DNA of 23,041 nucleotides. It comes from a virus. Of this stretch, positions 1 to 10,221 are shown one piece after another. Each line of letters begins with the position of its first letter. Within the stretch, counting starts at the first letter, position 1. The notes below the pieces were generated by a model. The model was not told the origin of the DNA. It saw nothing but the letters and a program-made list of their open reading frames with translations, and did not search any database. A program made the position numbers and the translations under genes. The stretch lies in IMG/VR virus record IMGVR_UViG_3300030060_007442, positions 1-23,041 of that record; one strand, 5' to 3'.

Positions 1-1092
1 TTGCATCTCTGTTCCAAGTCTAGCTGTAGCTATTTCTTGAGGGGTTTTCTTTCTAAGTTTCTCCATATCTTCGGCTGATTTTGGTGCTTCGCCTCTTAAA
101 AACCGACGCGTCTCTTCAGGGCTTAATTTCAATTGATTTGCTATAGCTTTTAGGTTGTATTTGCCTAAACTATCAAGCCTTCCGCCCACTCGATCTGTTA
201 AAGTCTTTTGGATAAATTCAGCGCGTTGGCCTTCTTCCATTTGAAGCAAGTCAATACTATTAAAGAGGGACTCCCCTAGAATCTGGTTCAACTTTCCGGC
301 CATGGTTGCGGACCCTTGAAAAGTGTCCATTTGGTCACCAAATGTTGTGGTAAGCTTACTAAACTCAACACCCGTTGTTCTAGACATTTTTTGTAGCTTA
401 ATAAAGTTGTCCATTATACCTTTAGCTGAATATGCGAAGTTCTTTTGTGCGAATTGAAAGTTTTTTGTTAACTCTTTTGGAGCAATAGAGAACTCTCTAC
501 CTGCCTTGATCAATACGGCTGTAAGATCATTTATCTCTCCAGAGGTTTGGTTAAAAGACATTGTTGCCGAGTCGACGATTTTGGCGAAATCATCGACGTT
601 ATAACCAGCTGCCTCCAGTGCTATTGAATTATCTATAAGATTTTGTCTTACTGAGTCTGTGACAAACCCAAAGGCCTGAAAGTTTTCCCTTAAAGCATCT
701 ACTGATCTTCTGGCTGCTTTAAAGTTACCCGTTAGCTTAAGGCTTCTATCATTTGCAAGTTCAATGTTCTTTGAAAAGTCGAACATTTTGTCAGAGTATC
801 CAGACTTGACAAATTCTTCATTTTCAATTCTTAGTCTTCTTATAGACTGAGAGAAGGCATCCGTAACAGTCAATACATCTTCAGTGTTTTTTACAGCATC
901 GATTAAACTTTTAGTAAAATTCCTGGTTACATCTCCGACACTCTTGAAAGCTGATTCTGTTGAGGCTGAACCAGAAGCTTTTTCACCTAATTTGATGCCG
1001 GACTTCTTAAGTTCTGACACAAAGTCTTTCTTCTGACTTCTGGTCATCTTCTTAATAGCTGCTATTATATCACCTGGGTCTATCTCGGCCAA
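1..1092 (-). CDS. Tail tape measure protein, N-terminal part (runs off the window)
   Basis: I translated this frame by hand: 364 codons stay open to the window edge, so the C-terminus is missing. The product begins (M)AEIDPGDIIAAIKKMTRSQ and is helical, rich in Lys, Glu, Ser and Ala, with segments such as NFQAFGFVTDSVRQNLIDNS and AGKLNQILGESLFNSIDLLQ that resemble tape-measure N-terminal regions. In this role it would set tail length inside the tube and be released during DNA ejection. The start is taken as TTG at 1092: an in-frame TAA lies immediately before it, and GAGAGGT sits 7 bases upstream. The first ATG, at codon 16, has no good ribosome-binding site. Position directly after tube and chaperone genes is the usual one for a tape measure. 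No catalytic domain was seen in the visible part. Confidence 0.75.
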   Translation of the reverse strand, partial: MAEIDPGDIIAAIKKMTRSQKKDFVSELKKSGIKLGEKASGSASTESAFKSVGDVTRNFTKSLIDAVKNTEDVLTVTDAFSQSIRRLRIENEEFVKSGYSDKMFDFSKNIELANDRSLKLTGNFKAARRSVDALRENFQAFGFVTDSVRQNLIDNSIALEAAGYNVDDFAKIVDSATMSFNQTSGEINDLTAVLIKAGREFSIAPKELTKNFQFAQKNFAYSAKGIMDNFIKLQKMSRTTGVEFSKLTTTFGDQMDTFQGSATMAGKLNQILGESLFNSIDLLQMEEGQRAEFIQKTLTDRVGGRLDSLGKYNLKAIANQLKLSPEETRRFLRGEAPKSAEDMEKLRKKTPQEIATARLGTEMQ

Positions 1093-1150: not shown

Positions 1151-1315
1151 TTATTGCTGTTTGGATTTTTCTTCTAGATGCTTTGATACTCTCTCAACGA
1201 ACCATTTTCTTAGACCATTAGGCAAACTATAAGACTCCGTAAAGGTCCAGTGCCCATAATTCATTAAAATGAAAATTTCTTCATAAGTTGATTTCTCAAC
1301 ATATTCTTTACTAAG
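1151..1315 (-). CDS. Probable +1 (or -2) frameshift extension of the tail chaperone
   Basis: This 54-codon frame overlaps the end of the upstream chaperone gene and ends with TAA at 1151. It reads LSKEYVEKSTYEEIFILMNY and continues with GHWTFTESYSLPNGLRKWF, a protein-like composition with aromatic and amphipathic residues. I find no ATG, GTG or TTG in this frame between the upstream in-frame stop and the ATG at 1264. That ATG lies inside the protein-like stretch and has no Shine-Dalgarno. The arrangement (chaperone, overlapping extension, tape measure) matches the G/GT layout of lambda and many other tailed phages, where a ribosomal frameshift makes a longer minor chaperone. Expression by frameshift is inferred. 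The alternative is an independent 37-residue protein from the ATG at 1264. Confidence 0.6.
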   Translation of the reverse strand, partial: LSKEYVEKSTYEEIFILMNYGHWTFTESYSLPNGLRKWFVERVSKHLEEKSKQQ

Positions 1316-2195
1316 ACCAAAACCAGCCCAATGAAAAGGGCACCTCCTTTTCTTGAGTGGTATCGCATTTTGGGCATGTAGTTTCGTGAGTTGTACTAAT
1401 ATTTGGAAGATTTCGATTATGTATTGACCGAATTAATCGTGCATCGGCTGCTGGTAATATCTCTGTAAGCTTGTTTATGGATGTTCTATCTGTTATACCT
1501 TGGGCCGAAACGATAACCATTCTTAAAAACTCTATTGTTTCGTTAAATGGCAAGTTTAACTTTTGTCTTTGTACTCGTGATGCGTCGAGGTTGTCTATCT
1601 CGTTTGTACCAGCAAGTCGAATTTCCATCTCTAGCTCAGTTGTGGGCAAGGTAAAGGAAAATGTTCCTGTTTCTTCTGAGTATTCCCACTCATCTGTCGT
1701 CTTAGGATTGAAAGAGTTCTCTGATGTTTTTTCAAGCATTTCTGACATCAACACCGGCATTTCGTATTCGTGGCCACAGCTTTCACAAGATGTGCTAAAT
1801 AGCACTTCATCTCCGTACCCTGACTTTCTAGCTGACATTAGAACTGCCACCTTATCACAATACATCATATCAGATGCTTGGATCCCAGGAGTTATCATAA
1901 TTGAATCTATCAATTTATCAAACACTATACCCTCTCTTATAAAGCTATCGTTTATCATGATATCTTCTTGGGCAGCGGTCACAGCCTTAACTTCAACTTC
2001 TGTCAAGCCGCAAAGAGGGCTGGATTCCTCATACAGATTACCACCACTTGGCAATTTAATAATCTCTGTCGGCACAACAAAAGATAACCCAAAAGGGTTA
2101 TCATTTTGCTCTACAATTTGTGGGGGTGGTGTTGGCGCTTCTTGTTTTTTGGTAGGCTGTTGTGGGGCTTGTATTCTATTTCTATTGCGAGACAT
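1311..2195 (-). CDS. gp26-like baseplate / tail assembly chaperone with zinc ribbon (T4_baseplate family)
   Basis: The 294-residue protein has a basic, Pro/Gln-rich N-terminus (about 1-30). A core follows with the motif IIKLPSGGNLYEESSPL and then EVKAVTAAQEDIM, the pattern of the T4 gp26-type baseplate family that pairs with the tape measure in many myoviruses. Two CxxC pairs (C137/C140 and C274/C277) look like a split zinc ribbon. The likely role is binding the tape measure and guiding hub or tail-tube assembly, by family and context. AAGAGG lies 4 bases before the ATG. The gene is 21 bases after the tube gene. Its end carries an internal AAGGAGG and two TTTT runs just before the TAG, which matters for the proposed frameshift. 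Confidence 0.72.
   Translation of the reverse strand: MSRNRNRIQAPQQPTKKQEAPTPPPQIVEQNDNPFGLSFVVPTEIIKLPSGGNLYEESSPLCGLTEVEVKAVTAAQEDIMINDSFIREGIVFDKLIDSIMITPGIQASDMMYCDKVAVLMSARKSGYGDEVLFSTSCESCGHEYEMPVLMSEMLEKTSENSFNPKTTDEWEYSEETGTFSFTLPTTELEMEIRLAGTNEIDNLDASRVQRQKLNLPFNETIEFLRMVIVSAQGITDRTSINKLTEILPAADARLIRSIHNRNLPNISTTHETTCPKCDTTQEKEVPFSLGWFWS
1319..1349 (-). promoter_or_regulatory. Candidate frameshift signal: internal SD plus slippery runs
   Basis: Within the chaperone coding sequence, AAGGAGG (1349 to 1343) is followed by CCC TTT T (1340 to 1334) and a second TTT T (1322 to 1319), with the TAG stop at 1313-1311. A tRNA on TTT can re-pair perfectly one base forward in either TTTT run. 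An internal Shine-Dalgarno just upstream of the shift site is the layout of the prfB +1 frameshift. Which run would slip cannot be decided from sequence alone, and a -2 shift would give the same downstream frame. Confidence 0.4.
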
Positions 2196-2216: not shown

Positions 2217-2801
2217 TTAATTAGGCGGATTGAAGGTGCCTGTTTTATTGAATGTCCATAGACCTGCTCCACCCTGTTCAAGCTTGCCCGGGGCCAACCC
2301 TTCAATTGTGGCATAGTCGTATTTTATGCCAACGGTTATGTTTAGCAAATCGTCTGCACTATAGTCTAGTGTATCAAACTCTACTGATGTTATTAAGGGA
2401 TTCTTTATTACCCAAGTCTCAATAAAGTTAACACCATCGGCATCAAGTTGAGATAGCTTTATCTCTGTTCCCAGTGCGTCAACCATACCTTGCTTAGATA
2501 TAGTGGCTGCTCTTTCTTCGGCATAATTGCTTGGAATAACATAACCAGAGTTTTCTAATATTTTATAGAGACTTTTAGTTGAGTCTGGCTGAACTGGATC
2601 AACCAGTGTAATCTGAATATCCTGCCATTGGACGCGGCCTGGATAATTAAACTCATAATTCAAGAATTGATGAGGGGTGGTGGTTACAGTGTAGGCTGGC
2701 TTCTTTACACTTTTTATAACAAACTGTGGCACACCTGTCCAATAAAGAAGCCATCTAAACTTTCTTTTTGGCTCGACTGTTTTTTCACTCCAAAATGCCA
2801 T
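2217..2801 (-). CDS. gp19: Tail tube protein (T4 gp19-like)
   Basis: This 194-residue protein would form the stacked hexameric rings of the inner tail tube. It starts MAFWSEKTVEPKRKFRWLLY and has the tube-family pattern of alternating beta strands (for example QWQDIQITLVDP and DLLNITVGIKYDYATI) with a helical stretch in between. The length is somewhat over T4 gp19 (163 residues). AGGAG precedes the ATG by about 10 bases. It follows the sheath gene directly, the same order as T4 18-19, which strongly supports the call. The C-terminus is Gly/Asn rich and probably flexible. No terminator is seen after it, so co-transcription with the chaperone gene downstream is likely. Confidence 0.88.
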   Translation of the reverse strand: MAFWSEKTVEPKRKFRWLLYWTGVPQFVIKSVKKPAYTVTTTPHQFLNYEFNYPGRVQWQDIQITLVDPVQPDSTKSLYKILENSGYVIPSNYAEERAATISKQGMVDALGTEIKLSQLDADGVNFIETWVIKNPLITSVEFDTLDYSADDLLNITVGIKYDYATIEGLAPGKLEQGGAGLWTFNKTGTFNPPN

Positions 2802-6258: not shown

Positions 6259-9200
6259 TTATTGCTCGATGTACTTGGCTACAACTTCGTCAGTAGAGTC
6301 AATTGTATTGGCATTAACAAGTGTTACAGTTCTACCACTTATAGAGTAGTCACCCGCACCATCATTGATGGTATCCGCGGAGGAAGACTGAACCTGATAA
6401 ATACCGTTAATGTACAAGCTAACTGCCTGAATACTTGATGGCACCTTCGACAAAGAGAAGACTTTACCAGTATTAGCAGAAGTTGACACGAAGTGATCTT
6501 CAACGTGGATGATTTCAAGTTTCTTGGAGGTGGCATTAATGGAAAGGCCATTTCCGCAAGATCCAGAAACCAAATCCTGATAAGACTCTTTCTTGACAAT
6601 GCCATCATCTGAGTCTTGAACCAACACAAAGTGGGTTGCGTCATTAGCAGCCATTGCCAAAGCAGCAACACTATCTAGTGTCACAGCGGCATCGAAAGTT
6701 GATGCCCCTTCAACATTAAGCGTTCCTTCGAGTTCTGTGGCGCCACCAACACTAAGAGTGGTGGAAGCAGAAACCGCTGTCGCAGTCACAGAGCTATTAA
6801 AGGTAGCCGCACCAGCTGCGGACATATCAAGAGTAAGAGCGGTAATCTCGGAGCTGTTGTCAACACCCTTGAAAACCATGTCTTTATCATTGACCGCAGA
6901 TTTTACAACAAAATCACTACTGGAATTGGTAAAACGACCAATTTCAGTGCCACCATCTTTAATAATAACGTCAGCACCGTCAGCATCAAGAACAATGTCG
7001 GCAACAGAATCTAGCAAAATATCACCAGAATTTGTTGACTGTAGCGTCACACCAGTATGGCCATCGACGACAGCTGTACCAGCGATTGAATCCACTGTCA
7101 AGTCGCCTGCTGCAGTCGAAACTGTCATCGCGTCTTGAGCTAGGATATCGCCTTCAAGATGTAAGTCCTGCCAAGCAGCAGTTGTGGTACCTAGATCGTG
7201 AGTATCATCGCTGGCCGGGATAAGATCACCAGTAACTTTGACATCTCCACTGGAAACAAGCAACAAGTCGGTGCCATCACCAGAAATGTATTCTCCGGCA
7301 TCACCGAAAGCCAATCTATGATTAGTTGTAGCTAACAAGGTATTATTGGCATTTGAGTGAGTCAAAGTGAAAGGTTGAGCATTACCAACCTTAAAAATTG
7401 CCCCGTTAGACAATAAGTCAAGGTCATCACCAATAACAGCACTCTTAGCAACACTTAAGCCACCATCAGTTTGAAGGGAGCCGTCAGTTGTTGTTGTTGC
7501 TTCGGTTGTATCATCAGTCTTGAGAACGCCTGAGAAAGTACCAGTGCTACCTGCTACGGTCGTGGCAGTTAGGGCTGCGATGCGCAGCGGAGCATATGCG
7601 TCGATGGCAACGTTACCAGCTGTTGAACCAGATTCAACAGTTGCTATAAAAGCAAACTGATCGGTGCTTTCATCAAAGATCATTGCGCGGTTTTCTTGTT
7701 CGCGAATAAAGACGAGGCCCAAATCAAGCGCTGCGCTAGCAGTGTTGTTTCGGCCCAAAACAATCAATGGATCCTCTACAAGAAGATTTGTTGTGTCAAC
7801 CGTAGTTGTCGTTCCGTTAATTGTAAGGTTGCCAGCAACAGTAATATTACTATCAAAAGTTGCTGCCCCTTCAACATTGAGTGTTCCTTCGAGTTCTGTT
7901 GCTCCACCGACGTTAAGAGTGCTAGAGGCAGAAACTGCTGTCGCAGTCACAGAACTATTGAAAGTTGCGGCGCCTGCTGCGGACATATCAAGTGTAAGAG
8001 CTGTGATTTCAGAGCTGTTATCAACACCCTTGAAAACCATGTCTTTATCATTGACCGCGGACTTTACAACAAAGTCGCTACTAGCATTGCTGAATCGGCC
8101 GATTTCGGTGCCGCCATCTTTAATAATAACGTCAGCGCCATCTGCGTCAAGAACAATGTCAGCAACAGAATCTAGCAAAATATCACCAGAGTTTGTTGAC
8201 TTAAGTGTTACACCAGTATGACCATCAACGATAGCCGTGCCGGCAATTGAGTCCACTGTCAAGTCGCCTGCGGCAGTCGAAACTGTCATTGCGTCTTGAG
8301 CCAGGATGTCACCTTCAAGGTGTAGGTCCTGCCAAGCAGCAGTTGTGGTACCTAGATCATAGGAGTCGTCCGCGGAAGGAATAAGGTCACCAGTAACCTT
8401 AACATCACCGCTGGAAACAACCAACAAGTCAGTGCCGTCACCGGAAACATATTCTCCAGCATCACCGAAAGCCAATCTATGGCCAGAAGAGGCCATGACA
8501 GTGTTATTGGCGTTTGAATGTGTCAATGTGAAAGGCTGGTCAGAACCAATCTTAAAGATTGCTGAGTTGGACAAAAGGTCCAAGTCATCACCAATAACAG
8601 CGCTCTTCGCGACACTCAAGCCGCCGTCTGTTTGAAGAGATCCGTCTGTAGTGCTTGTTGCTTCTGTTGCATCGTCAGTAGTAATACGTCCTGACGCCAC
8701 CAAAGCTCCGAGACTGAGTGATCCGGCGCCTGATCTATCAAAAGTAAGGCTAGCATCACCTGCAAGTGAGCCACTTGAATTAAACTGAATTTGTGTATTG
8801 GAGCCGCCGGCGATAGCGCCGATAAGCTCTTTAACTGTAACTTTCTTGACTACACCTGTTCCCACTGTTGCTATTGCCAAAAGGTCAAGAGCATTTGGGC
8901 TTGCGTTTCTAGAATCCAAGGATCCGGAAATATCAAGCTTTAGTGATGTTTTAACAGAGTCTTTTTCCACACGGGCGATACCGCCCGATGCTGAAAGTGG
9001 TAATTGGAATGCTGAAAGTTGATTTCTTCTTGCCACGTCTGATTCCTCCGAGCCGCCACCGCCGCCGCCGGCATTACTCATGCCAGAAACGGAGAAGAGC
9101 GAGCCTTCGTTTGTTGTTGTTATATTTACGTTTCCACTATCACCATCTGTATCATTAGTTAAATTAACTGTACTTCCTGAACGAGTTGCAGTAATACCAA

Positions 9201-10221
9201 GGTATGACCCATTTATCATCTCCTTGATAGCTTCTGCTATATTTGCTGTGCTAAGTGACGCGTCAGAGCCTGAACCTGCAATAGTGCCTTGGCGAAACCA
9301 AATCTTACTATTCAGGTTTGTGCCCCAGAACTGGTCATTAGTTGGGCTTAACGAATGTCTATTAATTGTATAAACATTTGTAGTTGCGTATTCGCTATAG
9401 CCCCAACTCATACACTTTTGCTTAGCCGAAGTGCTAAAGTCCGTATTTGGGTCTTTAAACTCCATGTAGCAAGCATTGCCTGCAAAACCAGCAGTGTCGT
9501 ACTCCAAGACAAGACCATGAATTTCAGACGCTGTATAGGTATTATTGGCGACGTTAGCGAGATTCGTCAAAGTCCCATTGGCTAAAACGCCTCTCGTAGT
9601 AATATCTATCAAGCTATTGTCTGCTGCATGCTTTAACGCTGCGCCGAAGACGGTGTGCGCACGGAAGCCACTTGAGCCTGTCGTGACAATTCGTATAAAA
9701 TATTCAGCTGCTGAGTCTTTCTTGTAAAGCCAAAACCTAGGGCTTCCAGATGAGCTATACTTTGCTAACAAAGTGTAGCCCGAGTTGCTTAGCGAAGTCG
9801 CGTCTGCATTACCACCGCCAATTTTGATTTCACTACCACCTGCATCCCTAAGGACAAAGTGAGGACGAGTTCCAATTGCTGTTATAGCACTTGAATTAAC
9901 TGCATCAACACCATTCCATGCGTCATCAAAAGTGGATTCATCTGTAATCCAAAAGGATAAGAGTGCCTTTTTTGCTCCGTCTGCTTCATCAAACGTTGGA
10001 ACGACAAGGCGAGTTTTTTGCGAATCTTCAAAAGGCAAATCACTCGCGCCACTATAGCCATCTGCATCACCACCACCGGTGAGCTTAAGGCCGCGGGCAT
10101 CGTTATCTATTACAAAAGTTAAACTATTAGTTCCGTCACCTAACACAAACCGAGGGTATGTTGCTGAGTCAAAATTTGACCCACCCTGTGAAATGACTAC
10201 TGTACCTGTAGCTGCAGCCAT
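6259..10221 (-). CDS. Very large fibre-like virion protein with internal duplication
   Basis: The 1320-residue product is low in Cys, rich in Ala, Ser, Thr, Asp and Gly, and has the short alternating-strand repeats typical of phage fibres. Order: an N-terminal region (1-390) with beta-rich segments, a poly-Gly hinge near 387-393, a linker with NTQIQFNSSGSLAGDASLTF, repeat copy 1 (about 513-788), a unique spacer (789-899, with TTTTVDTTNLLVEDPLIVLG), repeat copy 2 (about 900-1175), and a C-terminal module (about 1246-1320, LYINGIYQVQ to DEVVAKYIEQ). AGGAGG stands 7 bases before the ATG. The location between neck and sheath genes suggests a tail or neck fibre, or whisker. No receptor-binding or chaperone domain could be identified, so the role is an inference. 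Confidence 0.7.
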   Translation of the reverse strand: MAAATGTVVISQGGSNFDSATYPRFVLGDGTNSLTFVIDNDARGLKLTGGGDADGYSGASDLPFEDSQKTRLVVPTFDEADGAKKALLSFWITDESTFDDAWNGVDAVNSSAITAIGTRPHFVLRDAGGSEIKIGGGNADATSLSNSGYTLLAKYSSSGSPRFWLYKKDSAAEYFIRIVTTGSSGFRAHTVFGAALKHAADNSLIDITTRGVLANGTLTNLANVANNTYTASEIHGLVLEYDTAGFAGNACYMEFKDPNTDFSTSAKQKCMSWGYSEYATTNVYTINRHSLSPTNDQFWGTNLNSKIWFRQGTIAGSGSDASLSTANIAEAIKEMINGSYLGITATRSGSTVNLTNDTDGDSGNVNITTTNEGSLFSVSGMSNAGGGGGGSEESDVARRNQLSAFQLPLSASGGIARVEKDSVKTSLKLDISGSLDSRNASPNALDLLAIATVGTGVVKKVTVKELIGAIAGGSNTQIQFNSSGSLAGDASLTFDRSGAGSLSLGALVASGRITTDDATEATSTTDGSLQTDGGLSVAKSAVIGDDLDLLSNSAIFKIGSDQPFTLTHSNANNTVMASSGHRLAFGDAGEYVSGDGTDLLVVSSGDVKVTGDLIPSADDSYDLGTTTAAWQDLHLEGDILAQDAMTVSTAAGDLTVDSIAGTAIVDGHTGVTLKSTNSGDILLDSVADIVLDADGADVIIKDGGTEIGRFSNASSDFVVKSAVNDKDMVFKGVDNSSEITALTLDMSAAGAATFNSSVTATAVSASSTLNVGGATELEGTLNVEGAATFDSNITVAGNLTINGTTTTVDTTNLLVEDPLIVLGRNNTASAALDLGLVFIREQENRAMIFDESTDQFAFIATVESGSTAGNVAIDAYAPLRIAALTATTVAGSTGTFSGVLKTDDTTEATTTTDGSLQTDGGLSVAKSAVIGDDLDLLSNGAIFKVGNAQPFTLTHSNANNTLLATTNHRLAFGDAGEYISGDGTDLLLVSSGDVKVTGDLIPASDDTHDLGTTTAAWQDLHLEGDILAQDAMTVSTAAGDLTVDSIAGTAVVDGHTGVTLQSTNSGDILLDSVADIVLDADGADVIIKDGGTEIGRFTNSSSDFVVKSAVNDKDMVFKGVDNSSEITALTLDMSAAGAATFNSSVTATAVSASTTLSVGGATELEGTLNVEGASTFDAAVTLDSVAALAMAANDATHFVLVQDSDDGIVKKESYQDLVSGSCGNGLSINATSKKLEIIHVEDHFVSTSANTGKVFSLSKVPSSIQAVSLYINGIYQVQSSSADTINDGAGDYSISGRTVTLVNANTIDSTDEVVAKYIEQ
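6695..7525 (-). repeat. Intragenic repeat copy 2 of the fibre-like gene
   Basis: This copy is offset by exactly 1161 bases (387 codons) from copy 1 and spans about 277 codons, from TDDTTEATTTTDG to NVEGASTFD. Long stretches are identical in protein to copy 1, for example SSDFVVKSAVNDKDMVFKGV, while many third positions differ. Confidence 0.9.
7856..8686 (-). repeat. Intragenic repeat copy 1 of the fibre-like gene
   Basis: This is the N-terminal copy of the duplicated block, from TDDATEATSTTDG to NVEGAATFD. It is separated from copy 2 by a unique spacer of about 110 codons. Amino-acid differences cluster in a few places (NSAIFKIGSDQ against NGAIFKVGNAQ; VMASSGH against LLATTNH). Confidence 0.9.

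Follow-up and report, generated by a model that had tools for sequence, protein, structure and literature searches.

A probable programmed +1 frameshift, with an upstream Shine-Dalgarno sequence and hairpin, at the end of a gp26-like phage chaperone gene

Introduction

Frameshifting in the genes of tail-assembly chaperones is classic. For T4-like phages, TAC-N/TAC-NC chaperones were reportedly described by Vladimirov, Gautam and Davidson in 2022 (Virology 566:9-15), a study that may already mention some +1 cases. The locus analysed here belongs to the same family (PF12322) as T4 gp26 and gp51, with a second half related to the gp51 C-terminal domain and the same place before the tape measure. 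However, T4 has two genes, and KVP40, Bellamy and jumbo-phage relatives shift by -1 at T TTT TTC/T, whereas the signal found here is a +1 signal with an upstream Shine-Dalgarno (SD) sequence and a hairpin. A further parallel is lambda gpG/gpGT, where one gene, situated between those for the tail tube and the tape measure, gives a short and a long form, but the lambda shift is -1.

TAC-N genes of T4-like phages are reported to carry poly-T -1 signals (PMC12846349). Forward (+1) cases make up 350 of the 2718 positive sites in the SEA-PHAGES (actinophage) chaperone training data of PRFect (PMC10885494). Outside the chaperones, the nearest likeness is to prfB (release factor 2), in which a pyrimidine-rich P-site codon also slips +1 downstream of an internal SD; unlike in prfB, the SD at the present locus lies ~20 nt and not 3 nt away, a hairpin stands between, the A-site codon is UGG and not UGA, and the shift would serve two isoforms instead of autoregulation. 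UUU_CGU within UCC_UUU_CGU is the experimentally shown +1 site of influenza A PA-X (PMC3498833), which resembles our case in the UUU slip in the P site and the slow A-site codon, and whose hexamer is shared by our UUU_CGU relatives; it differs in working on the eukaryotic ribosome and in having no 5′ SD. Finally, +1 shifting on the 70S ribosome in vitro is stimulated by a hairpin that abuts the E site and mimics an SD duplex (PMC6321510), in designed constructs, whereas the element described here is natural and conserved and has both hairpin and SD.

In the open-access literature we found no report of a +1 group of gp26 genes or of an SD-hairpin signal. Frameshifted chaperones are thus known, T4-like phages included, and the widespread +1 form with an upstream SD plus hairpin is a new variant. 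Here we analyse a 23,041-nt stretch of viral DNA, hereafter the window, in which one gene probably gives two chaperones through a programmed +1 shift at UUU 1322-1320, a reading to which we assign a probability of about 0.78.

Results

Sheath, tube, gp26-like gene and tape measure follow each other in this order in the window, and the place between tail tube and tape measure is that of a tail-assembly chaperone. The locus comprises the following genes and frames.

2217..2801, minus strand: tail tube protein (phrog_4542, 3e-22)
1311..2195, minus strand: gp26-like short tail-assembly chaperone (TAC-N), 0 frame, 294 aa, named from PF12322, phrog_150 and gene position
1308..1313, minus strand: 0-frame stops TAG TAA, end of the short form, read from the sequence; exact position not conserved in relatives
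1151..1318, minus strand: TAC-C extension, +1 frame, GLSKEYVEKSTYEEIFILMNYGHWTFTESYSLPNGLRKWFVERVSKHLEEKSKQQ, open in all core relatives, conserved as protein and matched by hhalign
1..1092, minus strand: tape-measure-like protein, running off the window, named from its position; PF20155 match weak and below cut-off

The 0-frame ORF starts with the ATG at 2195, ends in ...KEVPFSLGWFWS and is closed by TAG at 1313-1311, followed by TAA. Its protein matches PF12322 T4_baseplate (4.8e-07, above the curated cut-off) and phrog_150 baseplate hub (1.8e-08); a sequence-based search found no relative with a solved structure. At the end of this gene the -1 frame is closed and the +1 frame remains open as far as TAA 1153-1151, reading ...GFGLSKEYVEKSTYEEIFILMNYGHWTFTESYSLPNGLRKWFVERVSKHLEEKSKQQ. 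Re-reading both frames confirmed what a preliminary description of this DNA had noticed, namely a protein-like frame that continues one base over, past the TAG of the chaperone, to 1151. Its remark that this frame has no start codon before 1264 was equally accurate: upstream of the slip site the +1 frame has 38 open codons, back to a stop at 1433, none of its codons between 1433 and 1264 is ATG, GTG or TTG, and the first ATG, at 1264, already falls within the conserved domain. Because 29% of the coding-strand positions in the window are also followed by 55 open codons, an open frame alone is weak evidence and the case rests on conservation. Elsewhere in the window, a fibre-like ORF of 1320 aa (6259-10221, minus strand) contains a long internal repeat, with SAVIGDDLDLLSNxAIFKxG... 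blocks occurring twice.

Core relatives, 60-65% identical, were collected from IMG/VR by protein and DNA-pattern searches, and all of them have AARGAGGTGCCCTTTTCNTTGGGCTGGTTTTGG and, in the +1 frame, a homologous extension free of stops. Across eight core genes the last 11 codons include 9 degenerate ones with an invariant amino acid, and 8 of these are also invariant as codons, compared with 6 of 94 elsewhere (p=1e-7); when only relatives from the protein search are counted, the figures are 8/9 and 14/117 (p=2e-6). The sole free codon of this frozen element is a serine TCN in the hairpin loop. The TAC-C extension has no such frozen codon (0/21 in the core genes), which indicates that it evolves as protein.

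The preliminary description had proposed an alignment of the junction with related phages. Two protein-profile scans of IMG/VR yielded 80 and 38 loci, 107 of them with readable downstream DNA, and in 106 of these 107 a pair of slip codons, usually Phe-Phe, is followed immediately by the extension in the +1 frame. The same arrangement is shared by 12 distinct loci from bacterial genomes (GTDB) and by the named phages Mel-JY01, immuto, LR756508, GXN1, SP-15, LIS04 and RM378. The proposal of a programmed +1 shift from the chaperone into the small frame thus gains support from conservation in more than 100 loci. The single exception is L102, the only readable A1/A2 locus with a -1 extension (around position 2241, TTC TTC TGG CCT TCC CGA); either an error in sequencing or a changed direction of shifting may account for it. 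A bridging relative, L151, combines an extension like that of the window's core with the common TTT TTT TGG slip and has no upstream SD. A 2.8-Mb bacterial contig (L170, CP070664.1), the chromosome of a candidate division WOR-3 MAG, also carries a gp26-like gene whose +1 extension closely resembles that of the window; this gene may belong to a prophage or a tail-like particle, or may reflect mis-binning.

The following elements lie around the junction, in the order 5′-AAGGAGGTG - GCCC/GGGC hairpin - UGG - UUU_UGG-3′.

1341..1349, minus strand: internal SD AAGGAGGTG, codons AAG GAG GTG, codon-invariant in relatives and predicted to form an anti-SD duplex
1326..1341, minus strand: hairpin GCCC (1341-1338) / GGGC (1329-1326), loop UUUUCAUU (1337-1330), from folding and invariant arms
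1323..1360, minus strand: longer alternative hairpin, 15 bp, with the SD partly in the stem (-15.9 kcal/mol)
1334..1337, minus strand: alternative slip site TTTT, in the hairpin loop and 5 nt from the SD, seen in the sequence and judged less likely
1319..1322, minus strand: proposed slip site, P-site UUU 1322-1320 with re-pairing on UUU 1321-1319; TTT in 94/98 homologous loci

At the proposed site the 0-frame A-site codon is UGG (1319-1317), a sense codon, the 0-frame stop comes two codons past the slip codon, and reading would resume at GGU (1318-1316). Among 98 loci with less than 85% nucleotide identity, 94 have TTT as the last codon ahead of the frame change, against a background of 76% TTT among Phe codons, and the next base is T in 72 and C in 19 (91/98), so that tRNA-Phe can move by one base and pair perfectly again. 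In the 0 frame, the A-site codons of these loci are mostly UGG (50), UAC (21) and CGU (13); good re-pairing in the P site and a conserved class of A-site codon, the general marks of a +1 site, are therefore both present. In the relative immuto the slip is CUU_U, the same as in prfB. The 0-frame stop is TAG, TAA or TGA at 2-15 codons after the slip codons among the relatives; the same three codons occur in the core, with positions 0-1 codon apart, and this variation shows that the stop codon is not the slip site. A -1 heptamer of the X_XXY_YYZ type was not found at GGC_UGG_UUU_UGG in the window. When the window is translated with TGGT decoded as W, the two frames become joined, but the same rule applies once more within the extension. 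A few A2 relatives (among them L140, L144, L146 and L148) read TTA/CTA-TTT/TTC-AAT-CCC-AGT near the slip; having UUU_A or UUC_A, where re-pairing of tRNA-Phe would be poor, they must slip differently, and CCC_A may be the slip codon of this subclade.

The AAGGAGG at 1349-1343 and the two TTTT runs at 1337-1334 and 1322-1319 are where the preliminary description had placed them. The duplex of the window's SD with the anti-SD is calculated at -12.9 kcal/mol, compared with a median of -6.9 at the phage's own listed starts, which are consistent with SD-using translation; it is stronger than at any of these starts, and 0 of 500 random windows matched it. The GCCC/GGGC hairpin (-7.8 kcal/mol, 99% of the ensemble of a short segment) is separated from the slip codon by 3 nt; in the core genes both arms are invariant, whereas all four letters occur at the N of the loop's TCN. 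The distal part of the 15-bp alternative is not conserved in core relatives. The earlier idea of an SD stimulator as in prfB holds in part: an SD is present and selected, but GGAGG is 20 nt from the likely slip codon, with the hairpin between them, instead of the ~3 nt of the prfB type.

Selection on both parts was measured against synonymously recoded sequences, with the protein and the codon usage of every gene left unchanged, in a main set of 98 loci (<85% nucleotide identity) and a strict set of 30 representatives (<50% protein identity). In the main set, excess pairing with the anti-SD is seen in 12-nt windows that end 18-24 nt upstream of the slip-codon pair (Stouffer -10.9 to -15.4), excess folding in the 30 nt immediately before this pair (-9.5, reaching background by ~24 nt), and both signals are near zero away from these peaks. 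The strict set keeps the folding signal (-4.2) and a weaker and broader SD signal (down to -3.1), and a held-out GTDB set gives -4.8 for folding and -6.3 for the SD, with controls at 0.3 and 0.5. Each of the two parts reaches p<0.1 in about 40% of loci only, and L151, L022 and L023, for example, are without SD, hairpin or both, though +1 members. The same test on eleven -1-type loci gave no comparable SD peak at these places and an adjacent folding excess about half as large (mean z -0.5). There is mild extra folding downstream of the slip too, weaker than upstream; a pseudoknot was sought as folding energy only.

The stem also shows covariation, modest and from related sequences: in the commonest register 63.6% of cells pair, compared with 35-48% when the register is slid, double changes number 34 against 24.1 ± 4.0 after shuffling (7/500), and one stem pair is GC, AU and CG within a nine-sequence subgroup. 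Because the stem register differs between lineages, covariation over all loci in a single register is diluted. The arrangement is clear in L016, GAGGAGGUGAUG-CGCAUCC-CGUU-GGAUGCG-AAC-UUU_C, and further clear examples are L084, L110, L111 and L137.

Could the shift occur upstream of the proposed site? Slippage on CCC_U or on the first UUU_U (1337-1334) would be prfB-like and give a product with ...KEVPFHWAGFGLSK...; the SD AAGGAGGUG would then stand 3-5 nt before, close to the prfB spacing, CCC is a +1 slip codon in Listeria phages (PMC5009743), and the first TTT is codon-invariant in the core. We nevertheless consider this unlikely, since in more than 100 relatives the frame has to change at the position equivalent to the second site, with no TTTT at the first in most of them, and since the transframe peptide VPFSLGWF/GLSKEY aligns gap-free to IPVGVNFF/GLSNEY and others. 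In addition, the free base of the element is synonymous in the 0 frame, but would specify H, L, P or R in +1. The two sites are expected to leave different junction peptides, EVPFSLGWFGLSK for the proposed site and EVPFHWAGFGLSK for the upstream one.

Three further readings would produce the extension without a +1 slip of the ribosome. That the small frame is an independent gene, with its own start or by termination-reinitiation, accords with the records of KVP40 and cyanophage Bellamy, where the corresponding piece is annotated as a gene of its own; yet those pieces lie in -1 directly behind T TTT TTC and look like frameshifts too, the window offers no start codon between 1433 and 1264, and the codon-frozen element would be left unexplained, so that we find this reading very unlikely. 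A -2 shift, which the preliminary description had left as an alternative, leads to the same frame with one extra residue in the product; such shifts presenting as +1 are known at GUU_UUU (PMC10885494), and the T7 runs of many relatives would allow them. In the window and the core, however, GG_UUU_UGG puts GGU two bases back, where tRNA-Phe cannot pair, and L015 (TTT CTT T) and L017 (TTC TTT C) fit +1 better, which makes -2 extremely unlikely and incompatible with the window's own sequence. Slippage of RNA polymerase on the T run, giving mixed mRNAs, could be imagined from the TTTTTTT of many relatives; we hold it to be barely conceivable, because the core has only TTTT and L017 TTT-C, when longer runs are usually needed, and because selection on SD and hairpin would have no explanation. 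Separately, ribosomes might bypass the stretch between UUU 1337-1335 and UUU 1321-1319, an idea that we dropped because the relatives lend it no support.

T4 gp26 and gp51 both match the PF12322/phrog_150 families, gp51 having an extra C-terminal stretch. In hhalign, a profile built from the +1 extensions matches one that combines the -1 extensions with the C-terminus of gp51 (95.7%, E 1e-8). The window's extension as a single sequence had no match in PHROG, and a shallow profile of four gp26 sequences gave no convincing hhalign match to single T4 gp26 or gp51, whereas the family HMMs matched. In the -1-type gp26 genes (LR756511, Atu_ph07, XacN1, Phosso, RAS14, Vibrio 2.275.O, PA5oct, 121Q, RaK2, KVP40 and cyanophage Bellamy) T TTT TTC or T TTT TTT precedes an extension in the -1 frame. 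In KVP40 and Bellamy this extension is annotated separately as 'baseplate hub assembly catalyst', i.e. gp51, and like the T4 gp51 C-terminus it matches phrog_634. Both 'gp51' ORFs (L033:3322-3489 and L034:3199-3369) are in the -1 frame directly behind the T TTT TTC at the gp26 end and are, judging from this position, probably frameshift extensions and not separate genes.

Discussion

In the mechanism that we propose for the window, most ribosomes would stay in the 0 frame and stop at TAG/TAA, producing TAC-N (294 aa). A minority would pause while UUU (1322-1320) occupies the P site and the slow UGG the A site; the peptidyl-tRNA-Phe might then advance by one base to pair with the overlapping UUU, and GGU would be the next codon read, yielding the long form TAC-NC, ...KEVPFSLGWF-GLSKEYVEK.... 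By analogy with lambda gpG/gpGT, TAC-N should coat the tape measure and TAC-C should recruit the tail tube.

How would an SD at such a distance contribute? The upstream SD AAGGAGGUG and the GCCC/GGGC hairpin together would form a 5′ stimulator. Measured from the P site the SD is ~20 nt away, which is not a distance at which an SD is known to promote +1 shifting, so its role depends on looping or on earlier action. We put forward the hypothesis that the hairpin re-forms behind the decoding site and loops out 16 nt, which would allow SD/anti-SD pairing near the E site and pull the mRNA forward; some +1 members have only one of the two parts or neither. Given that an E-site hairpin promotes +1 shifting in vitro and resembles an SD duplex in its effect (PMC6321510), the hairpin might be enough by itself. 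It is conceivable, though we regard it as somewhat doubtful, that these elements represent a new class of bacterial +1 signal, widespread in gp26-type phages, in which a hairpin spacer folds behind the ribosome, brings the SD to a prfB-like distance and both pull the mRNA forward by one base.

The preliminary description had expected a +1 event to be less common in a gp26 context. Instead, +1 is the rule around this phage, and KVP40-like, cyanophage and jumbo-phage gp26 genes use -1. In view of the profile match among the +1 extensions, the -1 extensions and the gp51 C-terminus, T4 genes 26 and 51 look like a two-gene version of the same short/long pair. One chaperone family would thus have three solutions, gene duplication (T4 26/51), a -1 shift and a +1 shift, and provides a natural comparison for the evolution of frameshift direction at nearly the same Phe-Phe codons. 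In the records that we inspected, the second half of the chaperone is unannotated or annotated as a separate gene. With ~100 natural variants of the upstream SD plus hairpin, it becomes possible to test directly whether 5′ structure can drive bacterial +1 shifting.

Flavobacterium phages and Flavobacteriales bins are the source of several +1 members (L015 and the Flavobacteriales loci L160, L162, L164, L167 and L169). Flavobacterium and Flavobacteriales hosts rarely initiate translation by SD pairing. The SD part might work differently in these members or be dispensable.
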